DNA from: Bacteroidota bacterium
Lineage (GTDB): Bacteria > Bacteroidota > Bacteroidia > Chitinophagales > Chitinophagaceae
Direction of reading: 5' to 3'
Length of the DNA stretch: 64,000 nt
NCBI GenBank assembly: GCA_013288945.1
Contig: JABDAZ010000006.1
Location: 1-64,000 of the forward strand
Numbering within the stretch: position 1 is the stretch's first letter; each line of letters opens with the position of its first letter. The notes beneath the pieces were generated by a model. It was given only the letters and a program-made list of their open reading frames with translations, was not told the origin of the DNA and searched no databases. Shown here in pieces: positions 58,284 to 63,872 of the stretch. Made by a program: the position numbers and the translations under genes.

Positions 58284-59498
58284 TCACGCTTTCAAACTAT
58301 TAATAAACTCCGCACTGCTCATTTGTTTTTTGATGCGTGTAATATCGCCCAAAGCAGTTACTAAAATATCGCGGTTATTTTCTGCCAAATCTTTTGTAAA
58401 AGCGCCGCCATCATTCATAATAAATGCAGCCATTTGCTGGCCGATTATTTTCATCAAATCGAATTTTGTGATATCTGCCATATCAATTTTGCCGAGGATT
58501 TTTTCAGTTAAATCGTGCAGCCATTTGCTTTCATATTTTTCTTCATCCAGGGAATCAATGTTTGGTAATTTATTAATCGCCTGCGGGTCGAGCGAAATTT
58601 GAAACCTTCTGAAATCAATCGTATGTTGTATCATCGGCGAGCGGAATGCGTCAACCTGCATGGCGCTTGCATCCTGGCCCATTTCCGTCATCAGCCAGTT
58701 GAGCCAGAACACAAGATCGATTCCTTTCAGATCAATCGTTTCAGTTGGCTTAATAAATTCTCTTGAAATGCCCGTTCCAAAACTAAACAAGGTGATTTGA
58801 GAAATTTTATACAATGAATCGTTTGGATTTTTATCTGCATTGCTATAAGAAACCGCTTCCATAAAAGCGGCAAGCGCGGGATTATTATAGGTTGTCGTTC
58901 CGCCATCAACAAATCTTTCCATCGGGTAAAAATAAGTTGGCGCACTCATCGTTGCTTCCATCACTGCGCGCAACAAAACATCCTGGTATGTTCCATAAAA
59001 ACTTCCATCACTTTGTTTAAAAACGGAAAAAAAAGTTTCTTCCGCCGCGCTCATATCCTGAACAGTTATCATCAAATCAATATCGGTTTTGCTGCAAGCT
59101 TCGTTCAATGTAACATCGCCAATAATCTGTTGCAACAACGCACGGTATTTTTCTTTTGTAAAAGCTGGCGGATTAATAAAACGGTTGCCAAGCAAACGGT
59201 GATCAAAAACTTCTGTTACTAAATTTTCATACATCGTTTCAATATCAAAAGCGGTATGGCCGCTTGCTATTAATCCTGCAATAATTCCACCGGTTGAAGT
59301 TCCGGCAACCATATCAAATAATTCATAGCATGGAATGCCTGCAGTTATTTCCAATTGCTTTAATAATTGAATCGTTAATATGCCGCGCATGCCGCCGCCA
59401 TCTAAACAAAGTATTGCTCGGTGATCTGCATTAATATTTAATTTTTGAAAAGCCTGTAAGCGCGAAGAATTAATTGCGCTGCTGTTTGGTTTTGCCAT
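58284..59498 (-). CDS. Patatin-like phospholipase
   Basis: CLDGGGMRGILTIQLL oxyanion hole, GTSTGG nucleophile, DGGTTTYNNPA dyad Asp. Confidence 0.92.
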   Translation of the reverse strand: MAKPNSSAINSSRLQAFQKLNINADHRAILCLDGGGMRGILTIQLLKQLEITAGIPCYELFDMVAGTSTGGIIAGLIASGHTAFDIETMYENLVTEVFDHRLLGNRFINPPAFTKEKYRALLQQIIGDVTLNEACSKTDIDLMITVQDMSAAEETFFSVFKQSDGSFYGTYQDVLLRAVMEATMSAPTYFYPMERFVDGGTTTYNNPALAAFMEAVSYSNADKNPNDSLYKISQITLFSFGTGISREFIKPTETIDLKGIDLVFWLNWLMTEMGQDASAMQVDAFRSPMIQHTIDFRRFQISLDPQAINKLPNIDSLDEEKYESKWLHDLTEKILGKIDMADITKFDLMKIIGQQMAAFIMNDGGAFTKDLAENNRDILVTALGDITRIKKQMSSAEFINSLKA

Positions 59499-59546: not shown

Positions 59547-60827
59547 TTAATTCACTTCCTTCAACTCTTCCCATCTTGTGCTGTGCCTTTCTGAGCGCAG
59601 TTCCTGGCGCATTTTCCAATCTTTATTAACGCCCGATGTACAAAATTTTACAACATCATCGCGCATGGCGAAATTTACATTATCAACCGCGCTCATTAAA
59701 AAGCGGTTTGTATTTTTTGATTCGGTTGCAAACAAATTTCCCTGGATGGATTCATCAGGAACAATTCCGCTCAACATTACGCCAGCTTTTTTATACGTTC
59801 TTCCTTTTTCAAAAAGATCATCTAACAATTCAACCGCAGGTTTTATTAATTCATGTGTAAATGAAGTTGCTGATTGCAAAGTTGCATAAGAACTTACTGA
59901 AGGACCATGGCGAAAATTGGATGAATAACTTTCTTCTTTCGGAACAATAAAAACGCTGATTGTATTTGCAGCGCACTGTTGCCTGCGTAATTTTTCAGCA
60001 GCGCGCGATGTGTAAGTTGCAATCGCTTCTTTTAATTCATGCAGTTCAGTAACTGGTTTTCCAAACATGCGCGTGGTTGCGATCATCTTTTTTGTATCCA
60101 GTTCTTTGTTCATCACAATGGAAGGTTCGCCGCGCAATTCTTTTATTAATCGAACGCCAACAACGCCGCCCATGTTGGTATGCGCCCATTCTTCGGGCAT
60201 GTTTCGCAAATCCCATGCGCTTGTAATTCCGCAGTTGATTAACTTATTTGCATACGCGCTGCCAACTCCCCAGATTCCATTAACGCGCGTAAGTTGCAAT
60301 GCTTTTCGTTGTTCTTCTTCTGTTATTAATAAGGTTACGCATTTTGTTTTTGCCTTATCTTTTTTGGCAATATGGTTTGCAATTTTTGCCAGCGTTTTTG
60401 TAGGCGCAACGCCAACGGAAACAGAAATGCCTGTCCACATTTCTACAGTTTCTCGCATTTCCATGGCAAACTTTTCATATTGATCCGCAGGGATTTTTTC
60501 AAGATTTAAAAATGCTTCATCTACAGAATACACTTCCACATTTTCTTCGCCAACCAAAACTCGCAAAGTATCCATCACGCGCATACTCATATCTCCATAC
60601 AAATGATAATTAGAAGAAAAAACAGCCACGTCATTTTTATCAATAATATGTTTGGCAAGAAAATATGGGCCAGCCATGCCAACGCCAAGTTTTTTTGCTT
60701 CATCGCTGCGAGAAATAATACAGCCATCATTGTTGCTTAAAACAACAACAGGTTTGTTCAACAAATCCGGGCGAAAAACCCTTTCGCACGAACAATAAAA
60801 ACTATTGCAATCAACGATGGCTTTCAT
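59547..60827 (-). CDS. umuC: Y-family DNA polymerase UmuC
   Basis: AIVDCNSFYCSCERVFRPDLLNKPVVVLSNNDGCIISRSDEAKKLG; SVDEAFLNLE. Confidence 0.95.
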   Translation of the reverse strand: MKAIVDCNSFYCSCERVFRPDLLNKPVVVLSNNDGCIISRSDEAKKLGVGMAGPYFLAKHIIDKNDVAVFSSNYHLYGDMSMRVMDTLRVLVGEENVEVYSVDEAFLNLEKIPADQYEKFAMEMRETVEMWTGISVSVGVAPTKTLAKIANHIAKKDKAKTKCVTLLITEEEQRKALQLTRVNGIWGVGSAYANKLINCGITSAWDLRNMPEEWAHTNMGGVVGVRLIKELRGEPSIVMNKELDTKKMIATTRMFGKPVTELHELKEAIATYTSRAAEKLRRQQCAANTISVFIVPKEESYSSNFRHGPSVSSYATLQSATSFTHELIKPAVELLDDLFEKGRTYKKAGVMLSGIVPDESIQGNLFATESKNTNRFLMSAVDNVNFAMRDDVVKFCTSGVNKDWKMRQELRSERHSTRWEELKEVN

Positions 60828-60954: not shown

Positions 60955-61389
60955 CTATCTCCGTTCGCGATCAAATTCATAAATCGAAATAAATTCATCA
61001 TGCTCCTGGCTGAATGTTTTTTTGCTGTGATGAATTTCCTGGTTCTTAATATATTCTCTCACGGAATTTAATTTCGATTCACTCACCGACACGGCAAAAT
61101 ATTCTTCCTGCCATTCAAAATTTCCGTTGCTCAATTTATTTCTATTAATAAAAAATGAACTTTCTCCTTTTATTAATTGAATCACTTTTGCAATGGATTG
61201 ATCCGGATTTAATGAAATCAAACAATGAATATGTTCATCATAACCATTAATAAAATCTATATAAATATTTTTGCTCAATGTGTTTTCGCGAATGTGCGCA
61301 AACAATTGGTAACGTAATTTTTTCGTTAATAATGGCTCCCGGTTTTTGGTTGCCCAAACGGCGTGAACCCAAATTTTTACCATTGACAT
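60955..61389 (-). mobile_element. IS200-like / REP-associated tyrosine (Y1 HUH) transposase, RAYT-like
   Basis: VHAVWATKNREPLL, GYDEHIHCLISL (HUH), WQEEYFAVSVS, YIKNQEIHH; internal start preferred over ORF start 61506. Confidence 0.9.
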
Positions 61390-61525
61390 TCTATAAGGTT
61401 TAATCAATAATGAGGTTATTGCAAAAACTAAATCGATGATCGTTGGACGATGCCGATGACGAAATTTTTTATTAATATTTATTATTTGAAACCGACCAAC
61501 GGCCAACGATCACCAGCCATCATTT

Positions 61526-61960
61526 TCACACATCCCGAATTACATACGTCACCACGCCCCAAACAGAAAATTCTGCGCCTGATAAATCCACGTCAATCGC
61601 CGCGAGTTTATTTGTCTCGGGCACCAATCTTATTTTATTAAACGTTTTTTCAAAACGCCGGATCAGCATTTCACCATTTAAAGAAGCGATAACAACCTTG
61701 CCCGTAGCAGCTTTTACGGATCGATCAACAATCACAATATCGCCATCAAAAATGCCGGCATTAATCATCGCATCGCCGCGCACGCGCATAAAAAAAGTTG
61801 CCGGTTTATTGCGGATGAGTTGTTCATTTAAATCAATCCCGCGTTCCATATAATCGTCGGCAGCGGCGCCAAAACCTGTGGCATTGGCAGTGCGCACATC
61901 TTTTTGGTGATACGTTTTGCTGCCTTTATAACCCGCGCCAAAAAATTGTTCCACTTCCAT
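61526..61960 (-). CDS. umuD: UmuD-like S24 family protein with substituted catalytic dyad
   Basis: GFGAAADDYMERGIDLNEQLIRNKPATFFMRVRGDAMINAGIFDGDIVIVDRS...NGEMLIRRFEK aligns without gaps to UmuD recalled from memory. Confidence 0.9.
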   Translation of the reverse strand: MEVEQFFGAGYKGSKTYHQKDVRTANATGFGAAADDYMERGIDLNEQLIRNKPATFFMRVRGDAMINAGIFDGDIVIVDRSVKAATGKVVIASLNGEMLIRRFEKTFNKIRLVPETNKLAAIDVDLSGAEFSVWGVVTYVIRDV

Positions 61961-61987
61961 ATAAAATATTTTTTTGTTTGCTAATTT

Positions 61988-62009
61988 ATTTAGTAAATTT
62001 ATGCTAAAT
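61988..62009. promoter_or_regulatory. Candidate operator in divergent umuD / 2H-phosphoesterase intergenic region
   Basis: ATTTAG-TAAATTTATG-CTAAAT inverted repeat. Confidence 0.35.
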
Positions 62010-62084: not shown

Positions 62085-62639
62085 ATGCAGGATTATTTGC
62101 TGATAATAAAACCGGGCGCAGATGTGGCTGAAAAAATAATTTCAGAAAAAAATATTTTATACAATGAGTATAAAATAGAAATGCCTGCTGATATAAAACC
62201 GCATATTAATGTAGCCGCTTTTTTGGCACGCGAAGAAATGGAAGAAACATTAATAAGATGGATCCAGCGCATTTGCAGCATGCAAAATAGTTTTTTGGTA
62301 ACGCTCAATAATTACAGCGGTTTTCCGCCGCACACTATTTATTTGCGCGTGCAAAACCCGGAACCGTTTCAGCAACTTGCGCAACAATTAAAAGTTATTA
62401 ATGATTTCATTTTTCCGCCGGTTTCAATTATTAATAAACCGCATTTATGCATGGCAACAAAATTGCCACAGCGTATTTATGAAAAAGCAATGTTCAGTTT
62501 TTCGCAAAAAATTTTTCATGAATCTTTTATGGCAAGCGAACTGATATTAATAAAAAAAGAAAGCCAGTCTGCTGCATACAAAACATTAAACGTATTTCAT
62601 TTTTTACCAGTAAATGAATTGGCACAATCAACTTTTTAA
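62085..62639 (+). CDS. 2H-phosphoesterase-like (2'-5' RNA ligase family) protein, degenerate motifs
   Basis: KPHINVAAF, FPPHTIYLRV, NKPHLCMATKLP. Confidence 0.6.
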   Translation: MQDYLLIIKPGADVAEKIISEKNILYNEYKIEMPADIKPHINVAAFLAREEMEETLIRWIQRICSMQNSFLVTLNNYSGFPPHTIYLRVQNPEPFQQLAQQLKVINDFIFPPVSIINKPHLCMATKLPQRIYEKAMFSFSQKIFHESFMASELILIKKESQSAAYKTLNVFHFLPVNELAQSTF

Positions 62640-63285
62640 AACTAAAAAAATAGCAATCATGAAAACAAATTTGCAAACCATTCCCGGATATAATATTAAT
62701 GAGTATTTGCTGGTATTAAATCCGCATGAAGAACTGCGCAACAAAATAAAAGAAGTAAAACAAAAATTTTACGACGACTTTAAAGCGCCAACTGCACTGT
62801 ATGGCAAGCCGCACCTTACATTAATAAGTTTTGTGCAATACACCATGTTTGAAGAGCGGCTTGTAACGCGGTTGAAAAATGTGGCGATGGGTTATCATCC
62901 TTTTAAAGTAGAGTTGAAAGATTTTGGAAGTTTTCCTTCGCACACAATTTATATTAACGTGACCACCAAAGAACCGGTTAAAAATTTGGTGAAAGAATTA
63001 AAACCGTTTCAGCAATTAATGAAATTAGATAAAGACAACAAACCACATTTTATTGACGAACCTCAAATCACGATCGCGCGAAAATTATTACCATGGCAAT
63101 ATGAGAAAAGCTGGCTGGAATATTCGCACAAAAATTTTACCGGCCGTTTTATTGCAGACAGCATGTTGTTATTAAAACGCAGGGTTGTTGATAAAAATGA
63201 AAAGCCAAATCCCTATCAAATTGCGCAGCGTTTTGAATTTCAGAATCTACCTGTGTCAACAAAACAGGGTGAACTGTTTATGTGA
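62614..63285 (+). CDS. 2H-phosphoesterase-like (2'-5' RNA ligase family) protein, paralogue of upstream gene (in-frame ATGs at 62614 and 62659)
   Basis: KPHLTLISF, FPSHTIYINV, DEPQITIARKLLPWQYEK. Confidence 0.65.
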   Translation: MNWHNQLFKTKKIAIMKTNLQTIPGYNINEYLLVLNPHEELRNKIKEVKQKFYDDFKAPTALYGKPHLTLISFVQYTMFEERLVTRLKNVAMGYHPFKVELKDFGSFPSHTIYINVTTKEPVKNLVKELKPFQQLMKLDKDNKPHFIDEPQITIARKLLPWQYEKSWLEYSHKNFTGRFIADSMLLLKRRVVDKNEKPNPYQIAQRFEFQNLPVSTKQGELFM

Positions 63286-63458: not shown

Positions 63459-63872
63459 ATGAAATCATTAACAGAAAATAATTTTAAACCAATCACAGAA
63501 AGGGAACAATGGCTCACTTCTGAATTGATGAACATTGCCATTTCCATTCATAAATCATTAGGATCAGGATTATTAAAATCTGTGTATGAAAAATGTTTTT
63601 GTTATGAATTGTCGAAAAGAAATATTCCATTTCTTCGCCAGCAAATGGTTTCAGTTATTTATGATAAAATGACAATTGATGAAGGTTTGCAAATCGATTT
63701 ATTAATAGACAATTTAATAATCGTTGAACTAAAAACGCAGGAAAATTATCATCCCATTTGGGAAGCGCAATTATTAAGTCATTTAAAACTTACCGGCAAA
63801 CGCCTTGGTTACATCATGAACTTTCATGTGCCATTAATGAAAGATGGAATCAAAAGAATGATTCTGAATTAA
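63459..63872 (+). CDS. GxxExxY family protein
   Basis: IAISIHKSLGSGLLKSVYEKCFCYELSKRNI...QIDLLIDNLIIVELKTQENYHPIWEAQLLSHLKLTGKRLGYIMNF. Confidence 0.85.
   Translation: MKSLTENNFKPITEREQWLTSELMNIAISIHKSLGSGLLKSVYEKCFCYELSKRNIPFLRQQMVSVIYDKMTIDEGLQIDLLIDNLIIVELKTQENYHPIWEAQLLSHLKLTGKRLGYIMNFHVPLMKDGIKRMILN

Follow-up and report, generated by a model that had tools for sequence, protein, structure and literature searches.

A Chitinophagaceae clade of UmuD proteins lacking the self-cleavage dyad, with the fold and linkage to UmuC retained

In textbook accounts, cleavage of UmuD switches DNA synthesis from accurate to mutagenic. Here we describe a clade of UmuD proteins from the Chitinophagaceae, a family of soil and freshwater bacteria, for which sequence comparisons strongly support the loss of self-cleavage with retention of the fold and of the linkage to UmuC. 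The member studied most closely is encoded in a 64 kb stretch of DNA from a Chitinophagaceae bacterium, referred to here as the window. The encoded system is probably an SOS-induced Pol V whose UmuD functions without being cut, resembling a UmuD' subunit that is permanently undocked and has an extended arm for binding UmuC. It would represent a variety of DNA polymerase V peculiar to the clade and stripped of the UmuD cleavage switch. A large clade in which selection maintains the umuD-umuC pair with the switch gone suggests that Pol V can do without it. Such a clade is also a natural setting in which transcriptional and post-translational control of mutagenesis can be told apart, with candidate UmuC-contacting residues identified in the arm. 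We found no paper describing the clade in the open-access literature, subscription journals lying outside the search.

Results

Both dyad positions and the scissile bond are substituted in the window UmuD

The umuD homologue of the window (61526..61960, minus strand, with an ATG start codon at 61960) encodes a dyad-less protein of 144 residues, here called type II UmuD. Its S24/LexA-type C-terminal domain matches Pfam PF00717 at 84.2 bits, and the protein matches the NCBIfam umuD model PRK10276 at 126.9 bits (cut-off 110); the name that this model confers, 'autoproteolytic', is contradicted by the sequence. E. coli UmuD' is aligned to the window protein by phmmer with E=4.6e-21, and the alignment with the E. 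coli UmuD' and UmuD structures is gapless from GF through EMLIRRF, as the sequence-only reading had claimed, with the first gap falling beyond EMLIRRF. GDAM stands opposite GDSM and LIRRF opposite TVKKL, with no gap from Gly25 to the TVKKL segment. A Foldseek search with the AF2 model returned UmuD' (1umu/1ay9) as the top matches. Because the phmmer alignment is gapless and Foldseek ranks UmuD' first, the three substitutions noticed in the sequence-only reading are real and in register. These are Ala64 (codon GCG, 61769..61771, minus strand) at the position of the E. coli nucleophile Ser60, Arg101 (61658..61660, minus strand) at that of the general base Lys97, and Thr28-Gly29 (61874..61879, minus strand) as the remnant of the Cys24-Gly25 scissile bond. 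Given the missing Ser-Lys dyad, RecA-stimulated self-cleavage of the window UmuD is expected to be negative, and UmuD would not be cleaved in vivo.

The substitutions define a clade under purifying selection

The closest relatives were taken as the best 80 loci in a genome contig search, which are 67-85% identical to the window protein and labeled mostly as Chitinophagaceae or unclassified Bacteroidetes. Across 111 loci, the combination of Ala, Arg and Thr at the three sites recurs in 83, and none of the close members has Lys at position 101. The same picture emerges from a 127-row alignment of distinct Chitinophagaceae relatives, where Arg101 (127/127), Gly29 and Phe30 are invariant, residue 28 is Thr in 122 rows and Ser in 5, and residue 64 is Ala in 100 (the Ala of the window therefore being shared by other genomes), with 26 rows having Ser and a single row Thr. 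Since Ser64 is kept in about one fifth of the clade, only the Lys-to-Arg change is fixed; the loss of Ser, for which the sequence-only reading had also raised the possibility of fixation, is widespread without being fixed.

Canonical-pattern UmuDs, both elsewhere in the class and within the same family, retain AGFPSPA, Ser and Lys. In a tree of 145 proteins a supported branch (SH-aLRT 98) sets the clade apart, together with the divergent members L107, L163 and L168, which likewise have Ala and Arg. Within the clade at least five changes are required at residue 64, and one reading of the order of loss is that Lys-to-Arg came first, with Ser drifting afterwards. The median dN/dS of 0.045 overall, 0.128 in the arm and 0.021 in the old scissile region, values that are rough as dS is near saturation, points to strong purifying selection on the clade UmuD. 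A sequencing error or lone mutant is ruled out by the more than 100 independent loci, and a pseudogene by dN/dS and conservation.

L111, a UmuD belonging to a different family within the order, has Asn and Arg replacing Ser and Lys, reads ATGFASPAEDY and sits on a long branch, and its UmuC has an intermediate RecA-NT segment (NFKHG); L111 is possibly an intermediate or an independent loss.

The N-terminal arm has lost its docking segment and gained conserved motifs

Thr at P1 is one part of a rewritten scissile region in which AGFPSPA has become TGFGAAA, with GAA in place of the PSP of E. coli UmuD. The substitution of Cys24 is by itself weak evidence, most canonical homologues having Ala at P1. 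The P3 position, hydrophobic in canonical UmuDs, is Asn or Asp in the clade. The docking segment, which in E. coli UmuD is the hydrophobic stretch F15-P16-L17-F18, has changed as well. Canonical homologues are hydrophobic at the match to F15 in 86% of cases, have Pro at the match to P16 in 70%, and are hydrophobic at the matches to L17, F18 and V22 in 84%, 93% and 100%, respectively. In the clade, by comparison, positions 15, 17 and 22 are hydrophobic in 0% of cases and position 16 is seldom Pro, position 15 being Gln (98%) and position 17 Asp, Glu or Gln. An Ala/Cys-Gly bond accompanied by a hydrophobic docking segment has given way to Thr-Gly with polar docking positions.

The arm that has lost these hydrophobics (residues 1-27 of the window protein, 61880..61960, minus strand) carries YxG[ST]KxFxQ and ANA. 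In the 127-row alignment the clade arm is of near-constant length with the motifs YxG[ST]KxFxQ and ANATGFGAAADDY, whereas the arms of canonical UmuDs are variable in both respects, as in the umuC-linked UmuDs of the same phylum (Haliscomenobacter; L138-L162), of which L138-L162 keep AGFPSPA, Ser and Lys. The AF2 monomer has a good globular domain and is not confident for residues 1-51, so the position of the arm is not given by the model. The tail that is cut off in E. coli is retained in the clade, where it has apparently been re-purposed.

The partner UmuC has an intact catalytic site and an altered RecA-NT segment

The partner polymerase, a UmuC of 426 residues (59547..60827, minus strand), was identified by profile matches. 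In the retrieved flank of 113 out of 128 clade members, umuC follows umuD in the same orientation; in several of the remainder, umuC is found elsewhere in the genome. The catalytic residues D6, D103 and E104 are intact in the window and conserved in 100% of the clade, as are Q362 and F366 of the beta-clamp motif QGNLF (residues 362-366, 59730..59744, minus strand). The C-terminal tail (residues 404-426, 59550..59618, minus strand), in which DUF4113 was detected, corresponds to the part of E. coli Pol V that binds UmuD. The clade UmuC resembles its E. coli counterpart in having both clamp- and UmuD-binding tails, and the linkage between UmuD and UmuC is preserved.

With the catalytic residues and the clamp motif, the clade UmuC has two of the features of the Pol V mutasome (UmuD'2C-RecA) and lacks a third, the terminal glycine of the RecA-NT segment. 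In the RecA-NT-like segment of the window UmuC (residues 377-397, 59637..59699, minus strand), Arg389 replaces this glycine, which is Gly in 97% of canonical UmuCs, including that of E. coli, and Arg in 92% of the clade. The glycine has been highlighted for its conservation in both RecA and UmuC (PMC6511836), and RecA in the clade genomes retains its own FGKG/YGKG glycine. Of five sampled clade members with Gly in UmuC, three also have Ser64 in UmuD. This pattern suggests that the contact of UmuC with RecA is weaker or different in the clade, and RecA control would be altered in the same sense.

The arm motifs track the cognate UmuC

Both arm motifs are kept in 102 of the 113 clade members with an adjacent umuC. 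The relationship between arm and polymerase can be read from genomes where a clade-type UmuD occurs with no cognate UmuC anywhere in the genome; 10 of 10 such UmuDs have lost both motifs or the whole arm, with the globular domain and the SOS box still present. Among 21 compared genomes with a cognate UmuC, 20 have at least one motif and 16 have both (Fisher p 6.8e-5, ignoring shared ancestry, with the comparison genomes picked partly for a weak match to the query or a non-adjacent umuC). The sole exception, L289, has no arm in frame before the globular domain, and the contamination of its genome is 7%. The arm losses are spread over five genera (g1, g29, g33, g59 and g112), each of which also has UmuC-bearing members, and therefore do not represent one event. 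Taken as a pattern of co-occurrence, these data lead us to infer that the uncut arm serves UmuC, and the partnership with UmuC suggested by the sequence-only reading is supported in that the arm motif occurs only alongside the cognate polymerase.

The motif-less globular domains from genomes without a cognate UmuC (L106, L107, L163, L168, L279, L281, L283, L285, L287 and L288) have dN/dS of 0.06-0.20 where dS was computable, which suggests either a UmuC-independent role or recent loss of UmuC. In two further, armless UmuD relatives, L185 and L191, position 97 is Arg and the ORF begins at the old cleavage site (MLFPSPAREY and MVFPLPAEDY). A search of both genomes at E<=1e-20 detected no UmuC; for this reason L185 and L191 were ruled out as evidence for working 'born UmuD'' genes and were not counted toward the dispensability of cleavage.

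An SOS box precedes umuD

The sequence CTAA-N5-TTAG, described as the operator of the non-canonical LexA of Bacteroidetes, including Chitinophagaceae (PMC8565304), lies at 61981..61993, its start 33 bp from the umuD ATG. The 64 kb window holds 1 copy where 0.77 are expected, and a lone copy proves little; a chance occurrence was nevertheless rejected on the basis of the proximity of the box to the ATG and its recurrence upstream of umuD in 107 of 111 loci. The four loci without a box comprise two whose upstream sequence is unreadable and two that hold distant homologues. The expression of umuD is accordingly predicted from sequence to be SOS-regulated. The sequence-only reading had offered a constitutive regulator as one role, a description that is only half right because of this conserved box, with which the gene should be damage-induced.

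A PF00717 search of complete relatives recovered in each an HTH-S24 protein of ~250 residues, the non-canonical LexA, with the expected AG, GDSM and Lys all intact. The self-cleavage chemistry is thus retained by LexA, with UmuD alone having lost it. The window UmuD is the sole S24 protein detected in its own genome, of which 73% is available, and LexA was not found in that 73% complete assembly.

Discussion

The observations are best accommodated by a Pol V in which DNA damage acts through transcription. RecA filaments would cause the cleavable non-canonical LexA to leave its CTAA-N5-TTAG operator, the freed operator would allow umuD and umuC to be made, and uncleaved UmuD would then associate with UmuC. 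Because the hydrophobic segment that folds the arm onto the globular domain is gone, UmuD would behave as a permanently 'arm-up' UmuD', and the full-length arm, of fixed length and sequence, would bind UmuC. We know of no experimental structure of the Pol V mutasome. Published models place the N-terminal end of UmuD' near the UmuC active site (PMC11791011), a plausible location for the arm, which would probably occupy the cleft that models of E. coli Pol V assign to the UmuD' N-terminus. A laboratory precedent for the undocked state is E. coli UmuD-3A (T14A L17A F18A), which is full-length and yet described as mimicking UmuD', its arms being weakly bound (PMC5342242); the clade differs from it in being natural, in also having lost the dyad and in having a new conserved arm.

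We favor a catalytically active uncleaved complex, given that UmuC keeps all of its catalytic residues and that the docking residues are gone from the arm. The phenotype of S60A in E. coli points away from an active complex, as UV mutagenesis is strongly reduced in this mutant (PMC5342242, PMC3901139), so uncleaved UmuD could equally keep UmuC inactive. The clade may not behave like E. coli, however. It resembles UmuD-S60A and UmuD-K97A in the catalytic positions lost, but its losses are natural, are maintained by purifying selection and are accompanied by changes in the arm and in UmuC. The rival that follows from S60A, in which uncleaved UmuD holds UmuC in a non-mutagenic checkpoint state as in E. 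coli UmuD2C and the pair mainly slows replication or performs accurate bypass, seems unlikely to us. It draws on the suppression of mutagenesis and UV sensitization by full-length and S60A UmuD in E. coli, and on the conservation of an uncleaved arm in the clade; yet a pure brake would not need UmuC catalytic residues that are 100% conserved, the missing docking residues mimic UmuD' in E. coli, and with the RecA-NT segment altered, the states known from E. coli may not apply to the clade.

That UmuD' is still made, through a cut near Thr28-Gly29 delivered in trans by a second UmuD, a LexA-like protein, Lon or Clp, we regard as distinctly unlikely. E. coli UmuD can be cleaved in trans, a canonical UmuD is also present in a few genomes, and the invariance of Gly29 and Phe30 beside a nearly invariant Thr28 would fit such a site. 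However, a second UmuD is absent from most genomes, including the available part of the window's own, and the residues preceding the site are conserved in their own right and linked to the presence of UmuC. An S24 protease would moreover be unlikely to recognize the site, because P3, P1, P2'-P4' and the docking motif are all altered.

Arg is known as a poor base at high pH from LexA K156R, and members with Ser64 and Arg101 might accordingly cleave themselves slowly, those with Ala being a degenerate state en route to loss. The 26 Ser rows and the repeated changes at residue 64 are what this would produce, but Ala is the majority, conservation and dN/dS show no decay, and the scissile and docking residues are altered across the clade, making the proposal improbable. 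The last alternative makes the protein a free-standing DNA-binding repressor acting on the operon that encodes it. A repressor role, also proposed in the sequence-only reading, is encouraged by some UmuD relatives, such as Acinetobacter UmuDAb, and by the operator upstream of umuD, but can be dismissed as highly implausible, since Pfam finds no DNA-binding domain in the 144 residues with their 28-residue arm, the operator is a published LexA site with a separate HTH-S24 LexA in complete relatives, and the arm tracks UmuC and not the operator, UmuC-less genomes keeping the box and losing the arm.

Returning to the preferred reading of an SOS-induced Pol V with uncleaved UmuD, a more far-reaching form of it can be advanced tentatively: a Pol V without either post-translational RecA control, that is, without UmuD cleavage and without the canonical UmuC-RecA contact, in which the uncut extended arm would be a permanent polymerase cofactor and mutagenesis would be gated by transcription alone, with the armless globular domain behind the SOS box in several UmuC-less genomes having a further, UmuC-independent role.

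Among characterized systems, E. coli UmuD/UmuD' shares with the clade the S24 fold (PDB 1umu, 8gmt), the umuDC gene order and SOS control. Phage P1 HumD is a UmuD' form needing no cleavage, but it is made armless where the clade has a fixed-length arm, and the window protein scores 73.9 bits against the HumD NCBIfam model, below its cut-off of 120. Acinetobacter UmuDAb is likewise a UmuD relative with an altered role, although it has an N-terminal DNA-binding domain and self-cleaves, and the window protein has neither property as judged from its sequence.

The genes around umuD complete the description of the locus. A Y1/IS200-type transposase ORF, recognized by profile matches, lies between umuD and umuC (60955..61506, minus strand, with a probable start near 61383), and homologues 69-78% identical occupy the same position in L009, L016 and L024; the ORF is unnecessary to the UmuD finding. 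Beyond umuC, a patatin-like phospholipase (58284-59498, minus strand) matches the CBASS lipase model weakly, at 130.7 bits against a cut-off of 200. On the plus strand, two overlapping adjacent 2'-5' RNA ligase/LigT-like genes (62085-62639 and 62614-63285) lie beside umuD, and a GxxExxY (PDDEXK_3) family protein is encoded at 63459-63872.
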